Assembly: GCA_947628005.1 (NCBI GenBank)
Contig: CANQYI010000007.1
Coordinates: forward strand, 1 to 49,343
Length of the DNA: 49,343 nucleotides
Origin: an uncultured Clostridia bacterium
GTDB lineage: Bacteria > Bacillota > Clostridia > TANB77 > CAG-465
Reading direction: 5' to 3'
In this document: piece after piece, positions 1,338 through 43,440 of the stretch
How the letters are laid out: each line of letters starts with the position of its first letter
How positions within the stretch are numbered: the stretch's first letter is position 1
The notes under the pieces: model-generated
The model's input: the letters and a program-made list of their open reading frames with translations, nothing else
Databases searched by the model: none
What the model was told of the DNA's origin: nothing
Position numbers and translations under genes: made by a program

Positions 1338-2792
1338 ATGCGTATTGGTGTTGATATTGATAATGTTTTATCAAATTTTAACGAAGTATTATTAAATGAT
1401 TATATTAGGCATGATAAAGAATTGGGAAACAGCGGTATAATCAAAGATGATGTTTATATAAGAGATATGTTTAACTGGTCAAAAGATGAAGAACAAAAAT
1501 ACTATCATGATAATATTGAAAGACTAGCAAATTTATTTGAGCCAATTAAAGATTGTTCTAAATACATAAAAGAGTTAAGAGATAATGGCCATTATATATG
1601 TATAATTAGCGGTAGAGATAATGGAGAATACTCTGATCCTTACAATATGACTACTAAGTGGTTGGAAAAATATGGTATTCAATATGATAAAATTATTTTA
1701 ACTAACGCATATAATCATCAAGAAAAAGCAGACATTTGTATAGAAAATAATATTGATATTATGATTGATGATTCAACTAATGTATGCGAAAAATGCTCTG
1801 AAAACAATATTAAACCTCTGTTATTTGGTACTGATTATAATAAGCATGAAACAAGATATAAAAGAGTAAATAATTGGAAAGAAATATTTGACTATGTAAA
1901 TAATTATAAAAAAGAAAAAATAAATGTTATTTTAGATACAGATACATATAATGAGTGCGATGATCAATTTGCACTTGCGTATATGATTAAAAGTCAAGAT
2001 ATATTTAATATAAACGCAATAACTGTCGCTCCTTATTCACATACAAAAAGAAATGAAACTGTAATTAGTGGTCAAGAAAAAAGTTATAATGAAATATTGA
2101 AAATATGTAATTGGTTAAATTTTGATACAGAAAATAAAGTTTTTAAAGGTTCACAAGACTATATTTGCAATGGCTACAAAGAAGATAATGATGCGGTAAA
2201 TAAGATAATTGAGATAGCATTACAGAATGAAAAAACTTACATTATGGCCATTGGTGCAATTACTAATATTGCATTAGCAATAAAAAAAGAGCCTAAAATA
2301 GTAGAAAAAATTGAAGTAATTTGGTTAGGTGGTAATAAATTAGGTTATAAAGATAACTTAGAATATAATTTTAAACAAGATATTGAAGCAGTTAAAATCG
2401 TGTTTAATTCTAAAGTAAATTTAACAGTATTTCCATGCCAAAATGTTGTTTCAAAATTAAAAATTGATATAAATACTTTAAAAGAAAATTTAACTAATAA
2501 ATCCAAATTATGTAATTATTTAATAGATAGATTTTATAATGATGGATATCATGGTGTACAAAAAGAGAGAGTTATTTGGGATATATCAGTAATTGCTTAT
2601 ATGATAAATAGTAATTGGTTTTTATTTAAACAAGTAAGTTGCCCTGATATTGGGGATGATACTTCCTACAAATCAACTAAAGATCAACACAAAGTAAAAT
2701 TTATAACTGATATAAATAGAAATGATGTATATAATGATTTATTTAAGAAATTAAATGATAGTAATGAAAGGATGCTGATAACTACAAACTAA
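1338..2792 (+). CDS. Fusion of HAD 5'-nucleotidase and inosine-uridine nucleoside hydrolase
   Basis: A 484-residue two-domain cytosolic enzyme. Residues 1-190 form a HAD phosphatase of the 5'(3')-deoxyribonucleotidase kind: DxD nucleophile motif at 6-8 (GVDIDNVLSNF), ISGRD near 90 and the acidic IDD motif near 143-145. Residues 194-484 are a nucleoside hydrolase: the metal-binding motif DTDTYNECDD (D200, D202, D208, D209), the MAIGAITNIALA strand, WLGGN, the FPCQNV segment and IWDISVIAYM near the end. Together they would take a nucleoside monophosphate to nucleoside and then to base plus ribose. ATG start with AGAGAGGTG upstream. A good hairpin terminator overlaps the stop codon. The domain calls are sure; which nucleotide is used is not. 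Confidence 0.85.
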   Translation: MRIGVDIDNVLSNFNEVLLNDYIRHDKELGNSGIIKDDVYIRDMFNWSKDEEQKYYHDNIERLANLFEPIKDCSKYIKELRDNGHYICIISGRDNGEYSDPYNMTTKWLEKYGIQYDKIILTNAYNHQEKADICIENNIDIMIDDSTNVCEKCSENNIKPLLFGTDYNKHETRYKRVNNWKEIFDYVNNYKKEKINVILDTDTYNECDDQFALAYMIKSQDIFNINAITVAPYSHTKRNETVISGQEKSYNEILKICNWLNFDTENKVFKGSQDYICNGYKEDNDAVNKIIEIALQNEKTYIMAIGAITNIALAIKKEPKIVEKIEVIWLGGNKLGYKDNLEYNFKQDIEAVKIVFNSKVNLTVFPCQNVVSKLKIDINTLKENLTNKSKLCNYLIDRFYNDGYHGVQKERVIWDISVIAYMINSNWFLFKQVSCPDIGDDTSYKSTKDQHKVKFITDINRNDVYNDLFKKLNDSNERMLITTN

Positions 2793-3037: not shown

Positions 3038-4177
3038 ATGTGCGATACAATTGGAATTATTAATGAAGATAGAGCCTTATTTGGAAAAAACAGCGATAGA
3101 AGTCCAAATGAGCCACAAGTAATAGAATTTATCAAAAGACATAAAACGAAATCAGATAAAGTTAAACTTACATATATAGAAATAGACGAAGTTGAAGAGG
3201 TGTATTCTATTCTTATTTCTAGGCCATCATGGATATGGGGAGCAGAAATGGGAGTAAATGAATATGGAGTTTGCATAGGAAATGAAGCAATATTTACCAC
3301 TAAAGTTTGCAAAAATAAAAACTTAATAGGTATGGATTTAGTCAGATTAGGATTAGAGAGAAGTAAAACAGCAAAAGAGGCCGTAGATGTCATTAAAGAT
3401 TTAATTGTTAAATATGGACAAGGTGGAAATTGTGGGTTTGATCATCAATTCTTGTATAATAATTCATTTTTAGTTATGGACAAAAAAGAATTATATATCG
3501 TTGAAACAGAAATGAATCATTTCAAAATTATAAAGAAAGATAAGGCTACAATATCAAATTGCTTAAGTGAACGGGACAATATTATAAAAGAGAATAAAAT
3601 TGTAACATATTTTTCAAAAGCGAAAAAAAGGCAACAACAAACATATTCAAAAATTGATGTATCAAAAGACGTAAAAGATATATTTAAAATATTGAGGACA
3701 CATGACATACAGGATAATAAAGTGTTTTGTAAAGGCTCTGTTTCAAGTCCGTGTATGCATGCGGGCGGAATTGTTGGGGATCATACCACTTCATCATTTG
3801 TGGTTGAGCTAATAAATGATGATATAAATGTATGGTTTACAGGGACATCTTGCCCTTGCCTTAGTGTTTTCAAATATTGGAAATTTGGGCAAGAAATAGA
3901 GTATCCTATATGTGACGATATGATAGATGACAAATATTGGAAGGAAAAAGAAAAAATATTTAGAGGGTTAATAGGATTTGAAATTCCAAATGATTTTTAT
4001 GAATATAGAAATAAATTAGAAGATGATATATATAAAAATAAAGATAAAATGACTATAAAAGAAATGTTAAAAAAGGAAACTGAAATGTTTGATTTTTTGA
4101 AAAGTATGAAATTGCGTAAAAGACATACATCATTGTATTATGATTATTATTGGAAGAGTAAATCAAAAAAATTGTAA
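3038..4177 (+). CDS. Secernin/C69-family Ntn amide hydrolase
   Basis: A 379-residue hydrolase of the secernin / peptidase C69 family. The chain begins Met-Cys-Asp, so Met removal exposes Cys2 as the N-terminal nucleophile. Family signatures follow in order: FGKNSDRSPNEPQ (about 17-29), WIWGAEMGVNEYGVCIGNEA (about 67-86), MDLVRLGLERS, KYGQGGNCG, SNCLSE, and CMHAGGIVGDHTTSS (about 243-257). Members of this fold cut amide bonds at dipeptide or acyl-amide substrates; the secernin branch has no well-fixed substrate. It is the first gene of the lipid-type operon, 16 bases before the CarS-like gene, so a lipid amide or amino-acid amide substrate is possible but only inferred. RBS GAGAGGAG; a short TCTCT/AGAGA hairpin lies right at the RBS. 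Confidence 0.85.
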   Translation: MCDTIGIINEDRALFGKNSDRSPNEPQVIEFIKRHKTKSDKVKLTYIEIDEVEEVYSILISRPSWIWGAEMGVNEYGVCIGNEAIFTTKVCKNKNLIGMDLVRLGLERSKTAKEAVDVIKDLIVKYGQGGNCGFDHQFLYNNSFLVMDKKELYIVETEMNHFKIIKKDKATISNCLSERDNIIKENKIVTYFSKAKKRQQQTYSKIDVSKDVKDIFKILRTHDIQDNKVFCKGSVSSPCMHAGGIVGDHTTSSFVVELINDDINVWFTGTSCPCLSVFKYWKFGQEIEYPICDDMIDDKYWKEKEKIFRGLIGFEIPNDFYEYRNKLEDDIYKNKDKMTIKEMLKKETEMFDFLKSMKLRKRHTSLYYDYYWKSKSKKL

Positions 4178-4193
4178 AGAATAGAGGTAAAAA

Positions 4194-4784
4194 ATGATAG
4201 ATAATATCTTGAGTATGTATATAACTTTAATGTCTCCAATTTTGGCAGGTATATTAAATATGGTGTGGTGCAAATCCCGAATTTTAAAAAGCTTAGCAAT
4301 ACCAATAGATGGAAATAAAAAATTTATAGATGGAAAAAGAATATTTGGAGATAATAAGACTTGGAAAGGGTTAATAGGTTATATTATTTTAAATATATTT
4401 ACAGCATGTTTATGGGGCTTAATATGTAGTGTATCAAAAATAGAGCAGTATAATTTTTTATATGTAAATCATGGTAATACAATTACATATAACATTGTGC
4501 TTGGTATTCTTTTAGGACTAGCTTATGCTCTTTGTGAATTACCTAATAGTTTTATAAAGAGAAGATTAAATATAGCACCAGGAAAAACGACTAAAGGTGC
4601 AAAAAAAATATTATTCGTAATTTTAGATCAAGCTGATTCAGTTATCGGTTGTGTCTTAGTTGTACATTGTTTTTATAAAATGACACTATCATTTATTTTG
4701 GCTTATATTGCACTTGGAACAATAACACATATATTAATGAATATGATCTTGTATTTTATGAAATTGAGAAAAAATATGTTTTAG
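4194..4784 (+). CDS. CDP-archaeol synthase-like (CarS/DUF46) CTP cytidylyltransferase
   Basis: A 196-residue membrane protein with about five hydrophobic helices. It carries the family motifs of CDP-archaeol synthase: FGDNKTWKG (about 50-58), SFIKRRLNIAPGKTTKGA (about 121-138) and ILDQADSVIG (about 144-153), where the acidic and lysine residues bind CTP and metal in the CdsA superfamily. In archaea CarS transfers CMP to the phosphate of a digeranylgeranyl glycerol ether. Here it would activate a phosphorylated lipid alcohol for the PssA-like enzyme further down the operon. AGAGGT ribosome binding site; lies between the secernin-like and first PEP-synthase-like genes. The family is clear; that the substrate is archaeal-type is not shown. 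Confidence 0.8.
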   Translation: MIDNILSMYITLMSPILAGILNMVWCKSRILKSLAIPIDGNKKFIDGKRIFGDNKTWKGLIGYIILNIFTACLWGLICSVSKIEQYNFLYVNHGNTITYNIVLGILLGLAYALCELPNSFIKRRLNIAPGKTTKGAKKILFVILDQADSVIGCVLVVHCFYKMTLSFILAYIALGTITHILMNMILYFMKLRKNMF

Positions 4785-4802
4785 GTAAATGGGGGATAAA
4801 AT

Positions 4803-7313
4803 ATGTTAATAAAATTTAATGAGAAAGATAATGGTAAAATTGGAAATAAAGCAAAATTTTTGATAGAAATGAAATCAAACGGTTTTAACATACCAAATGG
4901 TATTGTATTAGATAGTGATACATATACACAAATAATAAAATCAAATAAAATAGATAATAGTATTGAAAATCTTATAAAGGAATTAAATAAAGATAATGTA
5001 AAAGAAATAAGTAAAAAGATATTGAAATTATTTGATAATGTAAAAATTGAAGATTCAATAAAAAATGAGATAAATGCGAATATTGATTCATGCAAAAACT
5101 ACGCTGTTAGAAGTAGTGGAACAAAGGAAGATTTAGAGAATTTTTCTTTTGCTGGTCAATATGAGACATTTTTAAATATAAGCGGAATAGATAATATAGA
5201 AAAATCAATAATTGCATGCTATAAATCAATGTTTTCAGAAGTACTATTAGGATATTTAATAAACAATAATATAGAATTAGATAACTTAAAAATGTCTGTA
5301 ATAATACAAGAAATGGTTAATTCAGACTATAGTGGAATATGTTTTACAGTTAATCCAGTAACTGGAGAAGATAAGACAATGCTTATTGAGGTCGCAAAAG
5401 GATTAGGAGAGAATATTGTAAGTGGAAAAGTTGCACCAGAACAATATTATTATAATTGGTATGAAGAAAAAGGTACAATAGGCGAAAATAATAAAATATT
5501 AACTTCTCAAAAGTTAGAGCAAATGGCAAAAGAATTTTTGAAAATACAAATTTATTTTGGATACCCATGCGATATAGAATTTGCAATACAAAATGATGAA
5601 TTATATATACTTCAAGCAAGAAAAATTACAAGCATTAAGTATTTGGGAATAAAAGATATGTGGTCAACAGCTGATTTTAAAGATGGTGGAGTATCAGCTT
5701 CAATATGTACCCCATACATGTGGAGTTTATACGAGTATATTTGGGAGTTTACATTAAGAAAATTTATACTAGATTCAAAAATTTTAAAAGAAAAAGATGT
5801 AAATAAAAAGCTAGGGGATATGTTTTATGCAAGATGTTATTGGAATATGTCTGTTGTAAAACATGGAATGAGTCAAGTTGTAGGATATAAAGAAAGAGAA
5901 TTTGATAGCGAATATGGTGTAAAAATTAATTATGAAGGCGATGGAGAGACAACAAAAGCTAGCTTAAAAACAATTATACATATATTACAAATGGCTTTAG
6001 CCCAAAAGAAAATATTAAATGAAAGAAATAAAAATGCAGAAAATTATAAACAAGATTTATTGAACAAATACAATAATTATAAAGATAAATATGACAAAAA
6101 AGAAATAACAGATATAAGAAAAACATGGTATGAATTAACAAAAAAAATATATTTACAGAGTGAATCAACATATTTTTGGCAAATATTTATAAATACAATA
6201 CATCAATCATTGTATAAAGATAATTTATTAAAATATGTATCAGAATCAGATTATTTATCACTACTTGGAAGTATAGAAAATATATCTCATTTATTACCAT
6301 TTTATGATATGTGGGATGTTACAAGAAAAATAAGAAATGATAAAGAATCTTATAAATATTGGAAAGAAAAAAGTGTAGAGGAGCTAATTAAAAATATAAA
6401 TTCTACAGAAAATAAAATGTTAGATGTAAAAGAAATAATTGATAAATACGGATATCATTCAGATAAAGAATTAGATGTCACATATCCATGTTATTATGAA
6501 GATATCAAACCAATAATTATAAATATAAAAGATATGATAAATTTAGAAGATAATTTTAGTCCTGTAGAAGATAAGAAGAGAGGAAAAGAAATATATGAAA
6601 AAATACTAGAGTCTATATCAAAACAAGTAAGCCCAAGTAAAATGAAAAAAATAAAGACGAAAGTAGAAAATATGCGAAAAATGTTATGGTGGAGAGAAGA
6701 ATTTAGAGATATTTCTACAAGATTTTATTATATTATAAGAATTTATACAATTGAACTTGCTAAACAGTTTAAAAAAGAAGAAATTATTGAAAATATAGAA
6801 GATATATGGTTTTTAAAAGTAGGACAGATTTGGGATTTTATAGATGGAAAATTAGAAAAAGAGGCATTAAAGGAAATAATTAACAAGAATAAGGAATATT
6901 ATAATTCATTTAGAAATTATTTAAGTGAAAATGAAATTGGAAGTATATTTAGCATTGGAAATGATAGCAAAGATGATAATACATCTGAGAAAACTCAAAT
7001 AAAAGGTTTAGGAGCAAATAATGGAATTGTAACAGGAACAGCAAGAGTTATAGAAGATTTTAGTCAAATAGATAGATTACAAGAACATGATATACTGGTA
7101 ACAAAATTTACAGATACTGGATGGACTCCTAAGTTTGCTATTTTATCAGGAATTGTAACTGAATATGGAGGTATTCTTTGTCATGCAGCAATAGTTTCAA
7201 GAGAATACGGAATACCAGCTATTGTAAGTTGCCATTCTGTAATGAATAAAATAAAAGATGGAATGAAAATAACAATTGATGGTACAACAGGAATAGTAAA
7301 AATTGAAGAATAG
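4803..7313 (+). CDS. PEP-synthase-like phosphotransferase 1 (rifampin-phosphotransferase architecture)
   Basis: An 836-residue cytosolic enzyme. The N-terminal ATP-grasp half (about 1-280) has the PPDK_N signatures GNKAKFLIEMKSNGFNIPNG, YAVRSSGTKEDLENFSFAGQ, QEMVNSDYSGICFTVNP, AKGLGENIVSG and DIEFAIQNDELYILQARKI. A helical middle part (about 290-720) follows, then the swivelling phosphohistidine domain with GGILCHAAIVSREYGIPA; His794 is the phospho-carrier. The C-terminal PEP-binding barrel of true PEP synthase is absent, as in rifampin phosphotransferase (about 865 residues). By family logic it would split ATP and pass a phosphate through His794 to a small-molecule hydroxyl. The neighbours suggest a lipid alcohol rather than an antibiotic. 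RBS GGGGGA before the ATG. Confidence 0.8.
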   Translation: MLIKFNEKDNGKIGNKAKFLIEMKSNGFNIPNGIVLDSDTYTQIIKSNKIDNSIENLIKELNKDNVKEISKKILKLFDNVKIEDSIKNEINANIDSCKNYAVRSSGTKEDLENFSFAGQYETFLNISGIDNIEKSIIACYKSMFSEVLLGYLINNNIELDNLKMSVIIQEMVNSDYSGICFTVNPVTGEDKTMLIEVAKGLGENIVSGKVAPEQYYYNWYEEKGTIGENNKILTSQKLEQMAKEFLKIQIYFGYPCDIEFAIQNDELYILQARKITSIKYLGIKDMWSTADFKDGGVSASICTPYMWSLYEYIWEFTLRKFILDSKILKEKDVNKKLGDMFYARCYWNMSVVKHGMSQVVGYKEREFDSEYGVKINYEGDGETTKASLKTIIHILQMALAQKKILNERNKNAENYKQDLLNKYNNYKDKYDKKEITDIRKTWYELTKKIYLQSESTYFWQIFINTIHQSLYKDNLLKYVSESDYLSLLGSIENISHLLPFYDMWDVTRKIRNDKESYKYWKEKSVEELIKNINSTENKMLDVKEIIDKYGYHSDKELDVTYPCYYEDIKPIIINIKDMINLEDNFSPVEDKKRGKEIYEKILESISKQVSPSKMKKIKTKVENMRKMLWWREEFRDISTRFYYIIRIYTIELAKQFKKEEIIENIEDIWFLKVGQIWDFIDGKLEKEALKEIINKNKEYYNSFRNYLSENEIGSIFSIGNDSKDDNTSEKTQIKGLGANNGIVTGTARVIEDFSQIDRLQEHDILVTKFTDTGWTPKFAILSGIVTEYGGILCHAAIVSREYGIPAIVSCHSVMNKIKDGMKITIDGTTGIVKIEE

Positions 7314-7323
7314 AGGTAAAGAA

Positions 7324-8223
7324 ATGTTAAAAAGGTTGCATATTTATTTTAAAGAAATGTATCCTATAATACCAAGATTCGTATTAGGATTAATAGTGTT
7401 TTTTGAAATATATTTTATAATACTTTTAAATAATGGCATTACAGCATTTAATATTGGAATCCAAGAAATTGTAGGAAGTTACACAATATTTGCGTTTTTG
7501 ATGTGGCTTAGAATAGCAGATGATTTTAAAGATTATGAAACAGATAAAAAATTATTTGCAACAAGACCTCTTCCAAGCGGTAAAGTGAAGAAAAAAGACT
7601 TATTAATAATATGTTCGATAGTACAAGCTGTAGCATTAATATTAAATGTAATATTTATGAATAACATATATTTCTTTGCATTCTTATATTTATATGGATT
7701 TTTAATGAGTAAATGGTTTTTTCAAAAAAGTAAAATACAACCAAGTTTACCATTAGCATTAGTAACACATAATCCTGTACAAATGATAGTAAATCTATAT
7801 GTTGTCTCATTTACCTGCATAAAATATGAATTACAGGCGGTTACACTAACTAATTTTCTAGTATTATGGACATTATATTTCCCAGCACTAATTTGGGAAA
7901 TTTCAAGAAAAATAAAAGCACCTAAAGATGAAAATGATTATACAACGTATTCAAAATTATTCGGATACAAAAAGGCAACAAGATTTGTATTTGTATTAAC
8001 ATGGGTAGATATATTAACAAATATTTTATTAGTTGTAAACTTAAATAAAATAACAGTAGTTTTATTGTTGCTCAATGTGTTATGGATGTCAATTAAATTT
8101 ATAAAATTTATCAAAGATCCAACACAATATAAAATTGTTGATAAAGTAGAAAGATATACATATATCCAAGAATCACTTATGCTGATTACCGTAGCAGTGT
8201 ATTTAATAGTAGGTAAAATATAA
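7324..8223 (+). CDS. UbiA-family membrane prenyltransferase
   Basis: About 299 residues with eight or so membrane helices. The first Asp-rich motif DDFKDYETD (about 66-74) matches the NDxxDxxxD prenyl-diphosphate/Mg site of UbiA enzymes and is followed by RPLPSG, also typical. The second site, in RKIKAPKDENDYTTYSKLFG, is a weaker DxxxD-like motif. UbiA enzymes move an isoprenoid chain onto an aromatic ring, haem or glycerol phosphate; the archaeal DGGGP synthase is one. A TTG-initiated reading from 7303 is possible, but the ATG at 7324 has an AGAGGT site at proper distance and is preferred. Its stop overlaps the next ATG (TAATG), so translation is coupled to the second phosphotransferase. Acceptor and chain unknown. 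Confidence 0.75.
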   Translation: MLKRLHIYFKEMYPIIPRFVLGLIVFFEIYFIILLNNGITAFNIGIQEIVGSYTIFAFLMWLRIADDFKDYETDKKLFATRPLPSGKVKKKDLLIICSIVQAVALILNVIFMNNIYFFAFLYLYGFLMSKWFFQKSKIQPSLPLALVTHNPVQMIVNLYVVSFTCIKYELQAVTLTNFLVLWTLYFPALIWEISRKIKAPKDENDYTTYSKLFGYKKATRFVFVLTWVDILTNILLVVNLNKITVVLLLLNVLWMSIKFIKFIKDPTQYKIVDKVERYTYIQESLMLITVAVYLIVGKI

Positions 8224-10595
8224 TGTATGGAAATAAAATTGATAATTTAATTATTTTAAAAGAAAATAATATACGTGTACCCGATTTCATTATTATAAAA
8301 TATGAAGATGTAATAAAAAATAATTCGGAATTTGAAGAATTATTAAATAATAGTGAATATGTAAGTTTACATGATTTAAGTGTGAAACTAAAAAAATTGT
8401 TTGATGAAAAAATAAATATAAAATTAAATCTTAAATTAGAAGATGATCTGTATTCTGTAAGATCATCTTCTAATATAGAAGATGGAGTAAAAAATAGTTT
8501 TGCAGGTCAATTTGATACTTTTCTAAATGTAAAAAAAGAAGATATAAATGAAAAAATAAAATTATGCTTTAAGTCTTTATATAATGAAAATGTACTAGAG
8601 TATATCAAAAAAAATAATATAAAAGTTACTGAACTAAAAATAAATGTATTAGTTCAAAAAATGATAGATTCACAACTATCAGGCGTAATTTTTACTGCTA
8701 ATCCAAAAGGTATTCTCAATGAGACCGTAATAACAGTTGGAGAAGGCGTTGGAGAAAACATTGTACAAGATAAAGTTGATACAACAAGTTATTATTATAA
8801 TTTGACAGATAAGATATATTATTATGAAGGAAAAAAAGATTATCTAAGTAAAAGTACAATTGAAGAATTAATAAATAAATCTGCAGAAATAAAAAAATAT
8901 TTAGGAGAATATTTAGATATAGAATTTGCCATAAAAGATAATAATATATATTTTTTGCAAGCAAGGTCAATTACAACAATAGATGATTCAAATCCTTTAA
9001 TTTTAGATAATAGTAACATTGTAGAAAGCTATCCTGGAATAAGCTTGCCTTTAACATGTTCATTTGTAAATGTAATATATACAGGGGTATTTAGAGGAAT
9101 AAGTTATAGAATATTGAAAGATAAAAAAGCTATAAAAAGATATGAAGATGTTTTTTCAAACATGGTTGGAAATGCTAATGGAAGGCTATATTATAAGATA
9201 AGTAACTGGTATACAATATTAAAATTTTTGCCTCTAAATAGTAAAATAATACCAATATGGCAAGAAATGTTAGGGGTAAAAAATAAAACTTATAATAGGC
9301 AAAAAGTGAAATTATCATTAAAAACAAGGATTATGACATATTTTAATTTCATATATGAATTCTTAAATGTTCAAAAAAATATGGAGATATTAAATAAAGA
9401 ATTTATTGAAGTAAACAAATATTTTTATGATAATTTTTCAAAAGAAAAGACAGAAAAAGAAATTATAGAATTGTACTATGAAGTAAAAAATAGATTATTA
9501 AACTTTTGGGATATTACATTAATAAATGATATGTATTCATTTGTGTATACAGGACTGTTAAAAAATAGATTAAAAAAACAGACTAAAGATTATGAAAAAA
9601 TTGCGAATGGATATATAAGTGGAATATCAAATATTGAAAGTATGAAACCAATAGAAGAATTAATAAAAATAGCTTATGAAAAAGATAAAATTTCTAAAGA
9701 AGAATACGATAGTAGAATAGATGAATATATAAAAGTATATGGAGATAGAAATTTAGAAGAATTAAAACTTGAAAGTAGTACATTTAGAACAGACAGAAGT
9801 TTATTAGAAAATAGAATAAACGAATATAGTTTAGATAAGGAAAAATTAAAAGCATTATATGAGAATGTAAACAAACAATATGAAAAAAAGCTTGATATAA
9901 CAGATAAGAAAGTAGAAAAGTTAGTAAATAAGTGTAAAATAGGAATAAAAAATAGGGAAATATCAAGATTAAATAGAAGTAGAATTTTTGGAATGGTTAG
10001 AGAAATATTTCTAACATTAGGAGAGAAGTTTGAGAGTAAAAACATAATTGCAAGTAAAAAAGATATATATTATTTAACTGTAGAAGAAATATTTGAATTA
10101 GTAGAAAATAATAAAAATATGCAAGAAGTAGTAGAAAAAAGAAAAAAAGATTATGAAATGTATAAATTATTACCAACATATTCAAGACTTATATTTGAAA
10201 AAAAAGAATTTAATAAATCACATATAAGTGTAAATTCCAATAAAGTCTATAAAGATGATAATACATTAAGAGGAATTCCATGCTCAAATGGAATAGTTAA
10301 GGGAGAAGCACTAATTGTAGAAAATATTAATAATATATCAAATTGTAAAGACAAAATTTTAATCACAAAAATGACAGATCCAGGATGGGTTTTTTTGTTA
10401 GCAACTGCAAAAGGAGTTGTTTCAGAAAAAGGCTCATTATTATCACATACAGCAATAATTTCTAGGGAATTAAAGGTTCCATTTATTGTTGGGGTAGAAA
10501 ATTTATTAGATACAGTGAAAACAGGAGATATAATAAAAATGAATGGTTTTTCAGGCGAGATTGAAATACTAGAAAGGAAAGAAAATGAAATATAG
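8223..10595 (+). CDS. PEP-synthase-like phosphotransferase 2
   Basis: A 790-residue paralogue of the gene at 4803, with the same layout. ATP-grasp signatures: YSVRSSSNIEDGVKNSFAGQ, QKMIDSQLSGVIFTANP, GEGVGENIVQDKV and DIEFAIKDNNIYFLQARSI. The helical centre is longer in charged residues. The final phosphohistidine domain has GSLLSHTAIISRELKVPF with His742 as carrier. No PEP-binding barrel. The two paralogues share the end domains but differ strongly in the centre (about 270-680), where acceptor choice should lie, so they probably phosphorylate different compounds or act in two steps around the UbiA reaction. The start ATG overlaps the UbiA stop by one base; the end overlaps the GNAT gene by 11 bases. 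Confidence 0.8.
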   Translation: MYGNKIDNLIILKENNIRVPDFIIIKYEDVIKNNSEFEELLNNSEYVSLHDLSVKLKKLFDEKINIKLNLKLEDDLYSVRSSSNIEDGVKNSFAGQFDTFLNVKKEDINEKIKLCFKSLYNENVLEYIKKNNIKVTELKINVLVQKMIDSQLSGVIFTANPKGILNETVITVGEGVGENIVQDKVDTTSYYYNLTDKIYYYEGKKDYLSKSTIEELINKSAEIKKYLGEYLDIEFAIKDNNIYFLQARSITTIDDSNPLILDNSNIVESYPGISLPLTCSFVNVIYTGVFRGISYRILKDKKAIKRYEDVFSNMVGNANGRLYYKISNWYTILKFLPLNSKIIPIWQEMLGVKNKTYNRQKVKLSLKTRIMTYFNFIYEFLNVQKNMEILNKEFIEVNKYFYDNFSKEKTEKEIIELYYEVKNRLLNFWDITLINDMYSFVYTGLLKNRLKKQTKDYEKIANGYISGISNIESMKPIEELIKIAYEKDKISKEEYDSRIDEYIKVYGDRNLEELKLESSTFRTDRSLLENRINEYSLDKEKLKALYENVNKQYEKKLDITDKKVEKLVNKCKIGIKNREISRLNRSRIFGMVREIFLTLGEKFESKNIIASKKDIYYLTVEEIFELVENNKNMQEVVEKRKKDYEMYKLLPTYSRLIFEKKEFNKSHISVNSNKVYKDDNTLRGIPCSNGIVKGEALIVENINNISNCKDKILITKMTDPGWVFLLATAKGVVSEKGSLLSHTAIISRELKVPFIVGVENLLDTVKTGDIIKMNGFSGEIEILERKENEI

Positions 10596-11652
10596 AAAAT
10601 TTGAATATGAAAGTGATGCTATAAAAGAATTCATCAATTTACCAAAAAAACTTTACAATAAAAATACAAATATGGAAGATGCTAAGCAAATGAAAGAATT
10701 ATTATTAAATAAACATACGTTAAGTAAATACTTCCATTTAGATAAATTTCTAATTTATAACGAAAATAAAGTTGTAGGTAGATTTTGCATTACCACATAT
10801 CCAAATGATGAAGTCGCATACATTGGTTATTTTGAATGTATTGAAGATAGTAATGTAGCAAAATTTTTGTTCCAAACAGCTTATGATTTTGCTAAAGAAA
10901 ATGGATATAAAAAAATAGTTGGACCTGTAGATTCTTCATTTTGGATAAAGTATAGATTAAAAATAAATATGTTTAAATACGAGCCATATACAGATGAACC
11001 ATATAATAAAGAATATTATTATAAATTATTTCTTGAAAATAATTATAAGGTTATAGAACACTACACTTCTAGAAGATTTCCAGTAATAGAAGATACATAT
11101 TCTAATGGAAAATTTGAAAACAGATATGAAGAATTTACAAAAAAAGGTTATAGTATAGTTAGTCCAGATATTAAAGATTACGAAAAAATGGTTGACGAAC
11201 TTTATTATTTAATAACAGACTTATATAGTGATTTCCCTATTTTTAAAAATCTATCTATAGAAGATTTTAAAAAAATATTTGGTGGTTATAAAAAAGTAAT
11301 ACGAACTGAAATGATAAAAATGGCATATTTTGATAATAAAGCAGTAGGATTTTATATAAGTATTCCAAATTATTATAATAAAGTATATCACTTAAATATA
11401 TTGAATTTATTTAGTATTCTAAAATTAAAGAAAAATCCAAAAGAATATGTTATGTTATATATGGGAGTAGATAGAAATCATACTGGTCTTGGAAAAGCAT
11501 TAGTTGGAGCAATAGAAGAAGAACTTAAAAAGAATAAATTACCAAGTATTGGAGCATTAGCAAGAGATGGAAAGATAACTCAAAAATACGGTGAAGAGTT
11601 GGTTAAAGAACAATATGAATATGTTTTAATGGAGTGTAATATTTATGATTAA
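10585..11652 (+). CDS. Two-lobed GNAT acyltransferase (YghO-like)
   Basis: A 355-residue soluble protein. The N-terminal half has IGYFECIED and KIVGPVDSSFWIKYRL, a GP-x-D/N-x-S pattern found in the YghO-like GNAT group. The C-terminal half carries a normal GNAT acyl-CoA loop, VDRNHTGLGKALV (about 293-305), after the strand MLYMG. As I recall, bacterial ceramide synthases were placed near YghO-type GNAT proteins, so an N-acyl transfer from acyl-CoA to an amino lipid is a reasonable idea, but that link is inference. It overlaps its upstream neighbour by 11 bases and the acyl-CoA ligase by 8, which fits a ligase-transferase pair sharing one acyl-CoA pool. Confidence 0.7.
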   Translation: MKYRKFEYESDAIKEFINLPKKLYNKNTNMEDAKQMKELLLNKHTLSKYFHLDKFLIYNENKVVGRFCITTYPNDEVAYIGYFECIEDSNVAKFLFQTAYDFAKENGYKKIVGPVDSSFWIKYRLKINMFKYEPYTDEPYNKEYYYKLFLENNYKVIEHYTSRRFPVIEDTYSNGKFENRYEEFTKKGYSIVSPDIKDYEKMVDELYYLITDLYSDFPIFKNLSIEDFKKIFGGYKKVIRTEMIKMAYFDNKAVGFYISIPNYYNKVYHLNILNLFSILKLKKNPKEYVMLYMGVDRNHTGLGKALVGAIEEELKKNKLPSIGALARDGKITQKYGEELVKEQYEYVLMECNIYD

Positions 11653-13105
11653 AATAGAAGAAGTACTAAAAAATGATTATCAAAAATGGAAAAATAATGA
11701 TTATATATTTGAAAAAGAAAATGGCGTTTATAAGAGTATAACCTTTGGTAAATTTATTGAAAAGTCTGTTTATTTAGCAGAATACTTATTAAGTAAAAAT
11801 TTAAAAGGCAAAAGAATAATGATATTTTCAGAAAATTCTATAAATTGGATGATAACAGATATTGCAGTTATGAGTTATGTTGGAGAAAGTGTTACAATTT
11901 CAAAGGAATGGAAATATGATGATGTAGATTATGCCATTAATTTATTAAATATAGATTGCATTATATATAGTACCTCAAAAAAAGAAATTGTAAATCAAAT
12001 TAAAAACAAATATAAAGACATACTCTATATTTGCATGGAAGAAGAATATAATGAAATTCTAAAGATTGGGAAAGAATTAAATAATAAAAAGAGTGAAATG
12101 TTTGATTTTGAAAGTAAAAGTAATGACGAATGTGTAAAAATAATATTTACAAGTGGGACAAGTTCTATGCCAAAAGCAGTTAAACTGTCATTAAAAAACA
12201 TTTTTTCAGGAGCAAAGCCATTGAGTTTAAGAACAAAACTTAGTGAAAGTGATATTTGTTATTTATTCTTGCCTTTAACACACACATATGGAAATATATA
12301 TAATTTTGTCTATTCATTATTATTTGGATTTAAAATATATTTAGCAAGCTCAACACAAGAGATACCTAAAGAATTATTAGAAGTTAATCCAACAATTTTT
12401 TGCTCTGTTCCTTTAATTTATATTAATATGTATAATATGGCAAAAGATAATTTGACAAAGGTGTTTGGCAATAAAATTAGATATTTATTTTGTGGAGGAG
12501 CAAATTGGGACAAGAATATAAGAAAATTTTATAAAGATAGTGGATTAAATCTACTTGAAGCATACGCTTTATCTGAAACAGCATCATCTTTTGCTATCGA
12601 GTATCCAAATAAAGATGATTTTGAAAGTGTTGGAACGATATTTGAAGATATAGATGTAAAAATAATTGATAAAGGTGAAGATGGGTATGGAGAAGTTGTT
12701 GTAAAAGGAGATAATGTTTTTTTAGGATATGCTAACAATGAAGAAGAAACTAAAAAAGCATTTACAGATGATGGATATTTTAAAACTGGAGATATTGGAT
12801 TTATTGATGATAAAAATAGATTATATATTGTAGGTAGAAAAAAGAAAGTATTATTAGGTAATAATGGAGAAAACATTAGTATAAATAGAATTAGTGATAA
12901 AATAAAAGAAACAAATGACAATATATCAAGCGTAAAATTATTTATTAAAAATGGGAAATTAAATTGTTCAATTTATTTAAAGAAAGAAGATTCTACAAAT
13001 TGGGAGAAAATAATTAGCGATTACAATAAGAATTGCCCAAAATATGAAAGAATTCAAGAATATCAGATTATAATTGATTCAGTATATACTAGATTAAAAC
13101 AATAA
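11645..13105 (+). CDS. AMP-forming acyl-CoA synthetase / ligase (ANL family)
   Basis: A 486-residue adenylating enzyme. ANL core motifs are present: the P-loop IIFTSGTSSMPKAVKLS (about 168-184), the A5 region YALSETASS, and A7/A8 YFKTGDIGFIDDKNRLYIVGR. After the hinge the C-terminal lobe is short and the usual catalytic lysine motif near the end is reduced to a TRLKQ tail. It should convert a carboxylic acid (probably fatty) plus ATP to an acyl-AMP and then a thioester. Overlap of 8 bases with the GNAT gene upstream suggests that it supplies that enzyme. Smaller than the 570-residue ligase at 26365 and only distantly like it. An aryl or amino acid substrate cannot be ruled out. Confidence 0.8.
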   Translation: MIKIEEVLKNDYQKWKNNDYIFEKENGVYKSITFGKFIEKSVYLAEYLLSKNLKGKRIMIFSENSINWMITDIAVMSYVGESVTISKEWKYDDVDYAINLLNIDCIIYSTSKKEIVNQIKNKYKDILYICMEEEYNEILKIGKELNNKKSEMFDFESKSNDECVKIIFTSGTSSMPKAVKLSLKNIFSGAKPLSLRTKLSESDICYLFLPLTHTYGNIYNFVYSLLFGFKIYLASSTQEIPKELLEVNPTIFCSVPLIYINMYNMAKDNLTKVFGNKIRYLFCGGANWDKNIRKFYKDSGLNLLEAYALSETASSFAIEYPNKDDFESVGTIFEDIDVKIIDKGEDGYGEVVVKGDNVFLGYANNEEETKKAFTDDGYFKTGDIGFIDDKNRLYIVGRKKKVLLGNNGENISINRISDKIKETNDNISSVKLFIKNGKLNCSIYLKKEDSTNWEKIISDYNKNCPKYERIQEYQIIIDSVYTRLKQ

Positions 13106-13117
13106 GTGGAGGGAAGT

Positions 13118-13726
13118 ATGTTCATAGGAAAATATAATAAATCAGTAATATTAACTTATATAGGCCTGTTAAGTTCAATTATTGGAATTTATTTTGTATT
13201 TTATGAGATGCTCTCATATTCAATGATATGTTTAATTATTTCAGGAATATGTGATTTATTTGATGGAAAATTTGCAAGAATGTGCAAAAGAAATGATGAA
13301 GAAAAAGAGTTTGGAATTCAAATAGACTCTTTAGTTGATGTTATATCTTTTTTGGCATTGCCATGTTGTATAGGTCTAAAAGTATTAGTAAATTTACCAA
13401 AAGTATTAAATTTGGTTTTGGTATTTTATATTTTAGCTGGAATAATAAGATTAGCTTGGTTTAATATGAATTCTAATAAAGATGAGGCCGTAAAATATTA
13501 TATAGGACTACCGGTAACATATTCAGCTTTAATAATACCTTTAGTTTATGCTATAAATTTAATATATGCAAAGTTACCAATTTCTTATATCTATTTTTGT
13601 ATTTATTTGGTTATTGGACTAGCTTTTATATTAAATATAAAAATTGTGAAACCTAAGGGAATATGGTATGTCGTATTTGCAATATTAGCGATTGCTGTAA
13701 TTAATTTAATTATTATGATGGGATAG
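13118..13726 (+). CDS. pssA: CDP-alcohol phosphatidyltransferase, phosphatidylserine synthase type
   Basis: About 202 residues, six membrane helices. The CDP-alcohol phosphotransferase signature is intact: DLFDGKFAR, then GIQIDSLVD, giving the four metal-binding Asp residues. The space between AR and G is eleven residues instead of the textbook eight, a length I associate with clostridial PssA proteins. RLAWFN and YYIGLPVTYSA also match PssA. It would join serine to a CDP-activated lipid, with the CarS-like protein a likely supplier of that lipid and the adjacent Psd the consumer. A GTG reading from 13106 is in frame, but GGAGGG then ATG at 13118 is the better start. Confidence 0.85.
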   Translation: MFIGKYNKSVILTYIGLLSSIIGIYFVFYEMLSYSMICLIISGICDLFDGKFARMCKRNDEEKEFGIQIDSLVDVISFLALPCCIGLKVLVNLPKVLNLVLVFYILAGIIRLAWFNMNSNKDEAVKYYIGLPVTYSALIIPLVYAINLIYAKLPISYIYFCIYLVIGLAFILNIKIVKPKGIWYVVFAILAIAVINLIIMMG

Positions 13727-13735
13727 TAAAGAAAA

Positions 13736-14605
13736 ATGAAAATATGGGATAAAGAAAATAATCAATTTATAGAAGAAAAAGAGTATGGAAAAGAAAAGTT
13801 AAATTTTTTATATAATACAAGTATAGGTAGAATTTTATTAAAAGCAGTGTTTGCAAGTAGATGGTTTTCAAAACTAAACGGTATCTTTCAGAAAAGTGCA
13901 TTTTCAAAAAAGAAAATAGCCAAATTTGTAAAGGAATACAACATAAATATGACACCTTACCAAGATGTGCAATTATATAAATCTTTTGAAGATTTTTTTA
14001 GAAGAAAGAGAAATATTGAAGAAGGAATTAATCATGAAGCATATCAAAGTGATAGTTTTATTTCTATAGCTGATGCTAAACTTAAAGTGATTAATTTAAG
14101 TAAAAATAGTACATTTAAAATAAAACAAAGCATATATGATTTAAAGGACTTGATATTGGATGAAAAGTTAAGTAAAGAATATGAAAATGGTATATGTTTA
14201 ATATATAGGCTAACAGTAGATGATTATCATAGATATGTTTTTTTAGATGATGGAAATATAGAAAAAGAATACTATATAAAAGGCAAACTTCACACAGTTC
14301 AGGCTATTTCTGATAAATATAAAGCATATATTAGAAATTCAAGAAATGTTAGTATCTTAAATACTAACAATTTTGGAAAGGTATTGCAAATAGAGGTAGG
14401 AGCTATGTTAGTTGGAAAAATTAATAATCATAATATCAAAGAATTTTCAAAATTTGAAGAAAAAGGTTTCTTTGATTATGGTGGCTCAACTATAGTTCAA
14501 ATAATAAAAAAAGATAATGTAAAAATAGATAAAAACATAATAAATATGAGCGCTGATGACGTAGAAACAAAAGTAAAAATTGGTATGATAATTGGGAAAA
14601 AATAA
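13736..14605 (+). CDS. psd: Phosphatidylserine decarboxylase proenzyme
   Basis: A 289-residue proenzyme of the clostridial Psd type. The self-cleavage site is GGST near residues 249-252 (in DYGGSTIVQII); Ser251 becomes the pyruvoyl group. Other family features are FEDFFRRKRN, the catalytic stretch LTVDDYHRYVFLDDG, HTVQAISDKYKAYIRNSRN and IEVGAMLVGKI. It removes CO2 from the serine head group to give an ethanolamine lipid at the inner membrane face. Ten bases downstream of pssA, so the two form the usual PE branch; in archaea the same pair of families makes archaetidylethanolamine. The ribosome binding site is weak, fitting coupling with pssA. Confidence 0.9.
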   Translation: MKIWDKENNQFIEEKEYGKEKLNFLYNTSIGRILLKAVFASRWFSKLNGIFQKSAFSKKKIAKFVKEYNINMTPYQDVQLYKSFEDFFRRKRNIEEGINHEAYQSDSFISIADAKLKVINLSKNSTFKIKQSIYDLKDLILDEKLSKEYENGICLIYRLTVDDYHRYVFLDDGNIEKEYYIKGKLHTVQAISDKYKAYIRNSRNVSILNTNNFGKVLQIEVGAMLVGKINNHNIKEFSKFEEKGFFDYGGSTIVQIIKKDNVKIDKNIINMSADDVETKVKIGMIIGKK

Positions 14606-14650
14606 TAGAAAAGGAATTAGGAAAACTAAAATTATGATTAAGGAGAATAT

Positions 14651-15259
14651 ATGAAATTAACAAGTAAAGAAGCATTAAAAATTATAGAAACTTATAGAGG
14701 AAAAAACGAAAGTGATAGATGGATAGGGCACTCAATATGTGTTGGCGATACTGCTGAAAAAATAGCAAAATCATTAGTTGAAAAGGGCATTAATGTAGAT
14801 ATTGATAAAACAGTAGCCCTTGGATATATACACGATATTGGTAAATATAATGGACAATCTCATGGTCATGTTATGAGAGGTTATAATTATTTAAAAGATA
14901 AAGGGTATGATGAGGAATATTGTAATATATGTTTAACTCATTCATATTTAAATAATGATATTATTTGTACAGCAGGTGCTGTTCCTGATCCTAATGATAA
15001 CCTATTTCTAACTAATTTTATAAAAAATCACGAATATTCTATTGAAGAAAAAATTATAAATTTATGTGATTTAATGTGCCCACAAGGTAATATGGTATAT
15101 ACAATTGATAAACGCCTAATTGACATTATTATTAGAAGGGGCGCTTATTCAAATACACAATATCATGTTAAAGAAACATATAAATTAAAAGAATATTTTG
15201 ATAATTTACTGGGCTATAATCTTTATGATTTATTTCCAGAAATAAAAGAAAATTTATAA
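14651..15259 (+). CDS. HD-domain metal-dependent phosphohydrolase
   Basis: A 202-residue soluble HD protein. Metal ligands: His27 (WIGHSICV), His61-Asp62 (GYIHDIGK), further His residues in SHGHVMRG and LTHSYL, and a late Asp in NLCDLM. The length and motif spacing match the small HDIG-type hydrolases that act on nucleotides or phosphomonoesters. AAGGAG site then ATG. It is 45 bases after psd on the same strand and before a strong two-way terminator, so it may be the last gene of the lipid operon or simply a passenger. No specific substrate is suggested by the sequence. Confidence 0.75.
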   Translation: MKLTSKEALKIIETYRGKNESDRWIGHSICVGDTAEKIAKSLVEKGINVDIDKTVALGYIHDIGKYNGQSHGHVMRGYNYLKDKGYDEEYCNICLTHSYLNNDIICTAGAVPDPNDNLFLTNFIKNHEYSIEEKIINLCDLMCPQGNMVYTIDKRLIDIIIRRGAYSNTQYHVKETYKLKEYFDNLLGYNLYDLFPEIKENL

Positions 15260-15265
15260 TATAAT

Positions 15266-15303
15266 AAAAAACGCTATCACCTTAAAGTGATAGCATTTTT
15301 ATT
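15266..15303. terminator. Two-way terminator between the HD gene and virD4-like gene
   Basis: Perfect eight-base stem GCTATCAC (15273-15280) / GTGATAGC (15287-15294) with a six-base loop, an A run before and a T run after, so it can end transcription from both sides of this convergent pair. Confidence 0.85.
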
Positions 15304-15310
15304 ATTCTAA

Positions 15311-17821
15311 TTAATTCTTTTTATTTTCTTTAATTGAAGGAGTTTCATATGTTTCTGTTATAGCTCCTCCATCAAGTGAAGCATCCTCTAATTTAGGATC
15401 TTCTTCATCAAATACAATTTCAAAATCATCATCTATGTCACTACCATTAGAAGATGGTAAATCAGTTTTATTAGCATAAATTGTATCATTAGCAAATGGT
15501 ACAATAGGCTCATCTGCCATTATTTTCATTCTTTCTTCTAATTTTGAAGTAGTGTCAACATTGAATAGATTGTCATCTTTCTTAGAATCTTCATCATTTA
15601 TAGTAATAGTAGGAGTATCTGGCTTAGTCATCATGTATTTTTCAAAATTGTACATATCAGTATAGAATGGCTCAGAATACTTTGAATCTAAGAAAGCTGT
15701 TTTACCTTGACCATAAATTGTTTTACCAGCAGCATTTTTTGTCTTGAAATATACAGCACCAAATGCTTGATCTTGTATCTTATAAGCTTCAGCTCTTTCT
15801 TTCTTCTTAATATCAATTATAGTAGTCTTATTAATTTCACCAGTAGACAAATTATAAGAAGAAGACTGGTCTGGCTTTTTCTCTTTACCAAAAGCTTTCT
15901 CCCAATATGCACTATCTTCAGGTACAGTATCACCAAATACAATTTGAGTCTTTGTATTAGCAAGAACTGTTTGTCTATAATAGTCTTTACCACTCTTTTC
16001 TAATTGTGATAAGTTCTGTAATGCAATAGTTACACCACATCTGTATTTTCTAAATAGTGTAAACATAACTTCCATATCTTTAGTAATGTACTCTGGAAAT
16101 TCATCTATGTATAAGAAATGAGGTGTACGAGAATCTTCATTTCCTTTTCTTCTTAATACAGCATCTTGGAATTGTAGAATAAAGAACATACCAAATGCTT
16201 TAGCCTGAATCATACCAAGATCACCTTTTCTAGAACAAGCAGTAATAATACTTCCATCTTCTAAGGCTTTATCAAAGTTTAATATATTTTTCTTACCACA
16301 TAAAGCAGCTTTAAGACCAGGGTTTCTGATTAAATTATTAAGTTGAGTTATAGCACCATATAAGAATTTTTCAGTATCTTTTCTACCACTTCCACGAGTT
16401 CCAGGAATTTCATAACCATTTATATTAAGAGAAGGTTTGTAGAAATTCTTTTCAAAGTAAGCAATAAGTAATTTATATTTTTGCTCTAATTCTGGTATTT
16501 TTTTCATCTCTTCTGTCATTTCTTCAACTTTATCAAAATTATAAAGTAAGTGTAACATATCTTCTAAGCTTGCAACTTCACCATTATTAAGTATAGGATG
16601 CATTTCTTTCAAAAGTATTGATAAGTTTTGGAAAGCATCTATTGTTACTTGAGTAAAGAATGGATCAGACTTAGAACTTCCGCCACCACCAGAATTTTCA
16701 TACATTGCATTTAGAACATCTGCCACTATTGAAGCAACTTTTGCAGGATCTTCTATAGCAAATGGATTAATGCTTAAAGTTGTTTCCGGAGAAGAAGGGT
16801 CAATTGATAATACATCAATATTAAAGTTCTTAGCAACAGCAATAAAATTAGATATGTAATTACCATCATTTTCTACTACAGTTATACCTAAATTTCTATA
16901 TACTATTTCTCCAGATGAGTTATCAACATATTGAACAAGTGGCTTTACGCAGTTCATAAATTCTTCTTCCATACCACGTTTTGGTTTCAAATATTTTAAT
17001 GAAAAGTTTCTATTAATATATTCATTATTAAAAGGCCCATTTATATAAGCAATTCCTCTCTTTAACATAGAATATCCAATTTTTTTAGAATATTCTCTAA
17101 AGAAAAACTTTTTCTCAAGGTCTAGAGCACTCATTGGTAAAAGAACGGTAGCTGTTTTACCAGTACCAGTAGCACCTTGAACAAGAGTTGCCTCATAACG
17201 TTTTTTCTCAGGAACTACTACTGGAATAGAAGTACCTTTAGCTGTACATATTACAGTCTCACAAGAAAAAGCACCTGTATCTTTATCAGTAGCAGTTGCA
17301 CTTATTCCTGTAAATCCAGAAATAGCTTTAGTTAAATCCTCATCTCTATATATTAGCAAGAAATAATCAATAATTTTAAATATTGCAATAAAAGGAAAAA
17401 CCATACATAAAGATTTGATTGCTGGAGGAAATAGCTCAGGGTACATTTCTAAAACTTGATCATACTTTGGTAATTTTTGAAGTATGTACCAAGCACCTGA
17501 ATCAATCCAAGTAAGTAACATTCCACCAACTATTATAGCTAAAATAGAACATGTTACAATATACATTTTTATTTTTATACTATCGTTTTTAGCAAGTCCA
17601 GAATTAACAAAATAAGAATATGCAAAAACTGGTATAAAGAAAAATATACTATAAAGATAAGGAGATATATTATTTAAAATTTTAGCATCTCCTATAATAG
17701 CACTAAGCATACGAGATATAGATAGTAAAACTAGTACCGCAGATATTATATAAAGTAAAAAACATATAATTTTGTTTGGATTTGTCTTTATATGTAATTT
17801 TTTAAATAAGTTTTCAATCAA
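15311..17821 (-). CDS. virD4: VirD4/TraG-family type IV secretion coupling ATPase
   Basis: Membrane-anchored ATPase, about 836 residues from the TTG at 17821 (or 842 from a TTG at 17839; the GGTG site fits the former). N-terminal helices lie between about 20 and 170. In the 842-residue numbering, Walker A is GATGTGKT (222-229) and Walker B LYIDEF with D579/E580, followed by the IALQNLSQLEKSG sensor stretch typical of TraG. The last 100 residues are an acidic linker ending in patches such as DDDFEIVFDEED. Coupling proteins pick substrates and pass them to the secretion channel. It stands alone, convergent with the HD gene, about 20 kb from the VirB genes at 37-49 kb, which lack their own VirD4; the two loci very probably work together. 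Confidence 0.85.
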   Translation of the reverse strand: MIENLFKKLHIKTNPNKIICFLLYIISAVLVLLSISRMLSAIIGDAKILNNISPYLYSIFFFIPVFAYSYFVNSGLAKNDSIKIKMYIVTCSILAIIVGGMLLTWIDSGAWYILQKLPKYDQVLEMYPELFPPAIKSLCMVFPFIAIFKIIDYFLLIYRDEDLTKAISGFTGISATATDKDTGAFSCETVICTAKGTSIPVVVPEKKRYEATLVQGATGTGKTATVLLPMSALDLEKKFFFREYSKKIGYSMLKRGIAYINGPFNNEYINRNFSLKYLKPKRGMEEEFMNCVKPLVQYVDNSSGEIVYRNLGITVVENDGNYISNFIAVAKNFNIDVLSIDPSSPETTLSINPFAIEDPAKVASIVADVLNAMYENSGGGGSSKSDPFFTQVTIDAFQNLSILLKEMHPILNNGEVASLEDMLHLLYNFDKVEEMTEEMKKIPELEQKYKLLIAYFEKNFYKPSLNINGYEIPGTRGSGRKDTEKFLYGAITQLNNLIRNPGLKAALCGKKNILNFDKALEDGSIITACSRKGDLGMIQAKAFGMFFILQFQDAVLRRKGNEDSRTPHFLYIDEFPEYITKDMEVMFTLFRKYRCGVTIALQNLSQLEKSGKDYYRQTVLANTKTQIVFGDTVPEDSAYWEKAFGKEKKPDQSSSYNLSTGEINKTTIIDIKKKERAEAYKIQDQAFGAVYFKTKNAAGKTIYGQGKTAFLDSKYSEPFYTDMYNFEKYMMTKPDTPTITINDEDSKKDDNLFNVDTTSKLEERMKIMADEPIVPFANDTIYANKTDLPSSNGSDIDDDFEIVFDEEDPKLEDASLDGGAITETYETPSIKENKKN

Positions 17822-17846
17822 AAATATCACCACTTTCAAAGTAAGT

Positions 17847-43426: not shown

Positions 43427-43440
43427 AAAGGAAGATGTAT

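Follow-up and report, generated by a model that had tools for sequence, protein, structure and literature searches.

A conserved gene block proposed to build a non-standard amine-headed phospholipid in an uncultured Clostridia bacterium and its relatives

The window analysed here is the whole 49,343-nucleotide contig CANQYI010000007.1 of an uncultured Clostridia bacterium (GCA_947628005.1), part of a 1.20-Mb genome (G000) that is 98% complete. Positions 3038-15259 hold ten genes, eight of which form a block conserved in related bacteria: a CarS-like cytidylyltransferase, two dikinases of the rifampin-phosphotransferase (RPH) type (PPDKa and PPDKb), a UbiA-family prenyltransferase, a tandem-GNAT acyltransferase, an acyl-CoA/ACP ligase-like protein (ACS), a PssA-like serine transferase and a Psd-like decarboxylase. 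On balance we lean towards regarding this block as a self-contained, horizontally spread operon for a non-standard amine-headed phospholipid. The computed evidence consists of its conservation, of exchanges in its head-group and kinase genes, of family and fold assignments and of catalytic motifs. An earlier, sequence-only reading had described ten same-strand genes of these families as a candidate operon for an undescribed polar lipid: all ten open reading frames are intact on the + strand, and family searches recover the families that it named. Its overall interpretation is partly supported, and is sharpened here: UbiA, PPDKb and GNAT form the core, to which the kinase and head-group genes are added as modules that can be exchanged.

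Composition and distribution of the block

A CarS scan with one genome per species gave 122 relatives; the 80 of these that were kept are almost all from Clostridia, many of them from rumen or herbivore-gut assemblies. Named isolates among the carriers are Pseudobacteroides cellulosolvens, Butyrivibrio sp. XPD2006, Clostridium lacusfryxellense and Vagococcus allomyrinae. The most common gene order is CarS-PPDKa-PssA-Psd-UbiA-PPDKb-GNAT-ACS, with PssA-Psd shifted to the end of the block in the window locus. Ninety-one loci were selected by the presence of UbiA and PPDKb, and 84 CarS-type loci are scorable for adjacency. In the latter UbiA adjoins PPDKb in 82, PPDKb adjoins GNAT in 81 and CarS adjoins PPDKa in 74, an association far above chance. 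GNAT is present in 88 of the 91 loci. ACS, adjacent to GNAT in 57/84 loci, is frequent yet dispensable, and is missing from every operon of the DgkA type described below.

The sequence-only reading had named the staying together of its ten families in related genomes as its own test. Eight of the ten do stay together; the secernin-like and HD-domain genes stand beside the block in the window genome and at no other locus, and both are rejected as block members. The membership of the secernin-like gene in the earlier reading is thus unsupported; it adjoins CarS in this genome alone.

Flanking genes vary between loci, so that the block, seven to eight genes in size, resembles a self-contained mobile unit, and no transporter or regulator is conserved alongside it. 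Its distribution is patchy: the operon occurs in 9 of the 114 genomes that represent the order and in 13 of 348 genomes of a Lachnospiraceae-type family, while a UbiA search of a phylum sample (n=398) gives a strong match in the window's own genome only, and one of plasmids gives none. In the UbiA tree, carriers of the window's own genus are placed in three separate spots, which suggests horizontal transfer. Two operon contigs labelled Saccharibacteria (L032, L036) hold a Clostridia-type operon, probably through faulty binning or labelling of the assemblies. A CarS at L003:1741-2223 shares 86% identity with that of the window, but only 161 residues are matched and its 8-kb contig is free of other block genes, a case of decay or assembly error.

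Exchangeable kinase and head-group genes

The 91 loci fall into three classes that are never mixed: CarS with PPDKa (75 loci), CarS with DgkA (10) and BtaA with a phytol-kinase-like protein (6). A kinase adjoins CarS in all 84 scorable loci, with a gap of at most 58 bp, and the pairing is kept in two loci in which PPDKb-GNAT is relocated to the front. Four congeners possess the operon without PPDKa and carry a 122-125-aa DgkA-type kinase (PF01219) directly upstream of CarS; this is an extra copy, a second DgkA match being found elsewhere in each genome (a fragment in G038), and 16 other genomes tested contain none or one. Operons of the Lachnospiraceae-type family divide likewise: PPDKa occurs without DgkA in seven, and DgkA stands in front of CarS without PPDKa in six. 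In the UbiA tree the DgkA-type operons group into two distinct clades, and their in-operon kinase carries the PF01219 domain. The simplest reading of replacement and position is that PPDKa phosphorylates a lipid alcohol whose phosphate is used by CarS, and it is the constant neighbourhood of kinase and CarS that favours a lipid-alcohol kinase.

The head-group genes are exchanged as well. In six sister clusters (L092-L097) CarS, PssA and Psd are all missing; present instead are a DUF3419/BtaA protein, a membrane protein of 444-450 aa, GNAT, ACS, UbiA and PPDKb. The DUF3419 domain scores 228 bits (cut-off 28); within the order, full-length DUF3419 occurs in these six genomes only, at the cluster, and Psd is absent from all four sister-cluster genomes tested. 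BtaA converts diacylglycerol and S-adenosylmethionine into diacylglycerol-O-homoserine (PMC10685587); since it acts on free diacylglycerol, a phosphate module would be superfluous. Two further operons (L181, L183) lack PssA and Psd, with Psd elsewhere in the genome. From these swaps UbiA, PPDKb and GNAT emerge as the common core, with an exchangeable head. The 444-450-aa membrane protein has no Pfam or NCBIfam match; we call it phytol-kinase-like for a possible motif resemblance to CTP-type prenol kinases. In one sister cluster (L092:10465-14730) PPDKb is part of a 1421-aa fusion protein that also comprises an AMP-binding ligase together with an acyl carrier (phosphopantetheine) domain. The order of kinase, CarS, PssA and Psd in the sequence-only reading gains support from the swap of PPDKa and DgkA beside CarS and from the replacement of the phosphate head-group set by BtaA; the existence of a sister cluster and the likeness of UbiA to an archaeal lipid synthase had no part in that reading.

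The same exchanges can be told as prenol salvage, which we consider unlikely. PPDKa, DgkA and the phytol-kinase-like protein would be interchangeable prenol kinases, PPDKb would make the diphosphate, and UbiA would transfer a scavenged prenyl chain (e.g. dietary phytol) to a phosphorylated acceptor (e.g. lysophosphatidate), followed by CarS, PssA and Psd; the scheme parallels VTE5-VTE6-VTE2 of plants. It accounts for exactly one exchangeable kinase plus PPDKb in all three cluster types and explains the phytol-kinase-like protein, with its possible prenol-kinase-type motif, better than the lipid-alcohol-kinase reading does. Four carriers, the window genome included, lack a PF00348 prenyl-diphosphate synthase. 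Moreover, Gram-positive DgkA phosphorylates undecaprenol (PMC5723303), and some RPH-type dikinases may act as scavenging kinases (PMC12167813). However, the kinase is always beside CarS and moves with CarS, not with UbiA and PPDKb, most carriers can synthesise prenyl diphosphates themselves, and genomes of the order have often lost PF00348 (56/114) whether or not they carry the operon. Furthermore, RPH-type enzymes are not known to phosphorylate prenyl phosphates.

Still less probable is an ordinary phosphatidylethanolamine (PE) operon, in which PPDKa or DgkA would act on diacylglycerol, CarS would be a second CdsA, PssA and Psd would yield normal PE, and UbiA, PPDKb and GNAT would belong to an unrelated neighbouring pathway. 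Well-known pathways do have DgkA and CTP-transferases acting on ordinary diacylglycerol and phosphatidate, the family matches of PssA and Psd are generic, and the operon's Psd is the only Psd of the window genome and, likewise, of many carriers. Yet the head-group genes occur together with UbiA, PPDKb and GNAT in nearly all 85 CarS-type loci, as does BtaA in the sister cluster. The window genome also holds an ordinary CdsA already, so that a second cytidylyltransferase with its own kinase suggests a different lipid.

Enzyme families, backbone and isoprenoid supply

CarS (4194-4784, +) is placed in its family by PF01864 (E=4e-21; 76 bits, cut-off 22), scores below the NCBIfam equivalog PRK04032 (88 bits, cut-off 148) and matches by profile the solved structure of archaeal CarS, 5guf (E=1e-7); it is predicted to be a CTP:lipid-phosphate cytidylyltransferase. 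PPDKa (4803-7313, +), the proposed lipid-alcohol kinase, and PPDKb (8223-10595, +; catalytic motif EKGSLLSHTA) both match PPDK_N and PEP-utilizers and are composed of an ATP-grasp, a substrate and a His domain. Both phosphotransferases that had been read as His-relay enzymes are thus present with the catalytic His kept, and can be specified as RPH-type: rifampin phosphotransferase is the best solved-structure match of each. That match is what would speak for an antibiotic-inactivating or secondary-metabolite cluster around RPH-like enzymes, but scores of 317 (PPDKa) and 210 bits (PPDKb) are far under the NCBIfam RPH cut-off of 999, the partners are lipid enzymes, and transporters and regulators are missing from the conserved set. 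We regard such a cluster as very improbable, and antibiotic resistance is rejected on the RPH cut-offs and the gene context.

UbiA (7324-8223, +) scores over the NCBIfam PRK13592 cut-off (448 bits, cut-off 443) and slightly under the Pfam one. Its open reading frame is extendable to TTG 7303, but the start kept in homologues is ATG 7324, and UbiA therefore does not overlap PPDKa. In its predicted model (pLDDT 86) Foldseek ranks 1-2 are archaeal digeranylgeranylglyceryl-phosphate synthase (DGGGPS), with a VIA Z of 17.7 against 6m31 (268 aligned residues, 3.8 Å) and 17.6 against 7bpu; as the Aeropyrum pernix UbiA reaches 16.4, the lead of DGGGPS is modest, and a common fold is no proof of function. 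The first Asp-rich motif (D66, D70, D74) is invariant. The tandem-GNAT protein (10585-11652, +; model pLDDT 91.6) has a predicted fold related to amine acyltransferases including MshD (5kf2, Z 20.3); the sequence profiles of GNAT and UbiA match no solved structure. ACS (11645-13105, +) is an AMP-binding protein (PF00501, E=3e-47). PssA (13106-13726, +; CDP-OH_P_transf), which resembles CDP-alcohol serine transferases, scores nearly equally as bacterial pssA (76 bits) and archaetidylserine synthase (75 bits), both under cut-off, and shows the catalytic motif D..DG..AR...G...D...D. Psd (13736-14605, +; PS_Dcarbxylase, PF02666, E=8e-37) carries the GGST self-cleavage motif, found in 81 of 84 loci scored. 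PssA and Psd thus have family matches and catalytic motifs, and remain below equivalog cut-offs. The overlaps reported earlier at 8223, 10585 and 11645 are all present: the UbiA stop and the PPDKb start have base 8223 in common, PPDKb and GNAT overlap at 10585-10595, and GNAT and ACS at 11645-11652.

For the proposed operon we infer every substrate, the order of reactions, the isoprenoid chain and a backbone common to both cluster types. UbiA, PPDKb and GNAT, usually with ACS, would make a lipid alcohol other than ordinary diacylglycerol, possibly of glycerol type with one or more isoprenyl ether chains. PPDKa, or the dedicated DgkA of other carriers, would convert this alcohol into a lipid phosphate and CarS the phosphate into a CDP-lipid; PssA would then exchange CMP for serine, and Psd would decarboxylate the product, leaving an ethanolamine head. 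The BtaA of the sister cluster would put a homoserine head directly on the free alcohol, with no need of the phosphate module. An isoprenoid-ether or hybrid backbone is our leading guess, because the UbiA model best matches archaeal DGGGPS and CarS matches archaeal CarS. A wider version, which we hold to be rather doubtful, is that Clostridia and some Bacilli make a mixed archaeal/bacterial prenyl-ether (possibly acyl/prenyl hybrid) glycerolipid with a phosphoethanolamine or homoserine head, some of them from scavenged prenols, with the two RPH-type dikinases as lipid kinases.

Compatible with the proposed phospholipid operon, and a real though less than even prospect, is that GNAT and ACS N-acylate the ethanolamine or homoserine head to an N-acyl-PE-type or triacyl lipid, on an ordinary or a modified backbone. 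Kinship with amine acyltransferases such as MshD, the primary amine on both alternative heads, the position of ACS after GNAT in the 57 loci and the fusion of a sister PPDKb with ligase and acyl carrier domains all agree with this. However, the fold matches of GNAT are generic, O-acylation of the backbone fits equally, and GNAT is universal whereas ACS is not, so that the acyl donor may be acyl-ACP or another compound.

Several observations weigh against the proposed phospholipid operon. The loci share phylogeny, hence their counts are non-independent. The second UbiA motif reads as a basic ExxRK...DE (E192xxR195K196...D202E203) in both cluster types and appears to depart from the canonical Asp-rich form. 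The scheme gives no account of the role of PPDKb and has no place for the phytol-kinase-like protein. One carrier (G034, 89% complete) has neither PssA nor Psd in its operon and no Psd elsewhere. GGGP synthase (PcrB) is over cut-off in 0 of 19 carriers. Sequence searches of the window genome find no prenyl-diphosphate synthases and no UppS, and PF00348 is not found in G000, G028, G034 and G046. Finally, CdsA can take archaeal substrates (PMC7852524), so CarS alone is no proof of an unusual lipid.

A complete archaeal lipid pathway is rejected on the absence of PcrB/GGGPS from the carriers tested. With no known prenyl-donor enzymes in the window genome, any prenyl chain would need scavenging; the other carriers mostly make their own prenyl diphosphates. 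The window genome lacks the block intervening between radA-disA and carD (IspH block) that is present in congeners, and the uppS of other relatives is missing from its frr-cdsA-rseP region. In detail, ispH, ispA, uppS and dxr are missing from G000 by sequence search, with clean deletions at C1 (L117:1277-3938) and C6 (L105:12124-15226); the peptidoglycan genes mraY, murC-G, ftsI/W and UppP are retained. PF00348 is absent from 56/114 genomes of the order and from 4/9 carriers, and many members of the order seem to have lost the synthesis of isoprenoid chains. Since this loss is common regardless of the operon, it is no evidence for the operon's purpose, and compensation for lost isoprenoid synthesis is rejected as a general explanation. 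Escherichia coli FabH, FabD, FabF and PlsX have no matches in G000 (L100-L165 and the window), and the organism probably takes up fatty acids. Window positions 26365-28077 hold a second acyl-CoA ligase.

Neighbouring genes and comparison with known systems

The block is preceded by a secernin/AAT-like Ntn hydrolase (C45/C69-like; 3038-4177, +) with a weak AAT/C45/C69 family match and followed by an HD-domain hydrolase (14651-15259, +) with an HD family match. Terminator-like hairpins, of which four were found and 1.7 expected, end the upstream unit (2784-2812, +; 12 pairs, three of them G-C, with a T-rich tail; a consensus match only) and close the unit downstream (15273-15294, +, with a prediction on the - strand too). 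From these two hairpins the ten genes probably form a single transcription unit here, with the secernin-like and HD genes probably co-transcribed with the block in this genome. Upstream, at window 1338-2792, a 484-aa open reading frame joins, by eye, a HAD-like nucleotidase to an inosine-uridine nucleoside hydrolase domain. Elsewhere on the contig, VirB4-like and VirD4-like ATPases (named by eye; 41480-43426 and 15311-17839) and a tandem pair of large, closely similar membrane proteins (43435-45888 and 45952-48366) appear as scattered type IV secretion or conjugation genes.

The individual enzyme families are already known; no published description of this pathway was found in the literature searched, outside which most subscription journals fell. 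A conserved lipid pathway would mean that many rumen and gut anaerobes possess a partly undescribed membrane chemistry. An isoprenoid backbone, if confirmed, would be relevant to the archaeal/bacterial lipid divide, and this in living bacteria of which some can be cultured; RPH-type "PEP synthase" annotations would, if the reading is true, gain a new function as lipid-alcohol kinases.

Among known systems, the archaeal polar-lipid pathway (GGGPS, DGGGPS, CarS, archaetidylserine synthase and decarboxylase) resembles the block in that the latter encodes together a DGGGPS-like UbiA, CarS, Psd and a PssA that scores as well for archaetidylserine synthase as for the bacterial enzyme. In contrast, the bacterial carriers lack a PcrB-type GGGPS, the second UbiA motif appears changed, a dedicated kinase stands beside CarS, and RPH-type dikinases, GNAT and ACS are additional. 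In bacteria of the FCB group a DGGGPS-type UbiA has been proposed for archaeal-like lipids (PMC7852524); these too are bacterial hosts of such a UbiA, but they combine it with GGGPS, and CarS is missing from the Cloacimonetes, whereas the block has CarS and no GGGPS. Bacterial PE synthesis (CdsA, PssA, Psd, with DgkA recycling) proceeds likewise from alcohol to phosphate, CDP-lipid, serine and ethanolamine forms; the block differs by CarS in place of CdsA, by a mostly RPH-type kinase and by the fixed partnership of UbiA, PPDKb and GNAT. Betaine lipid synthesis by BtaA/BtaB shares the DUF3419/BtaA-type protein with the sister cluster, where BtaA is linked to UbiA, PPDKb, GNAT and ACS and, as checked by eye, no BtaB is adjacent. 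The dikinases RPH, HpeHI and PpsAB have the same ATP-grasp, substrate-binding and His-swivel domains, with the His motif kept in PPDKa and PPDKb, but the latter two are distinct subfamilies with other substrate domains and a lipid-gene context.

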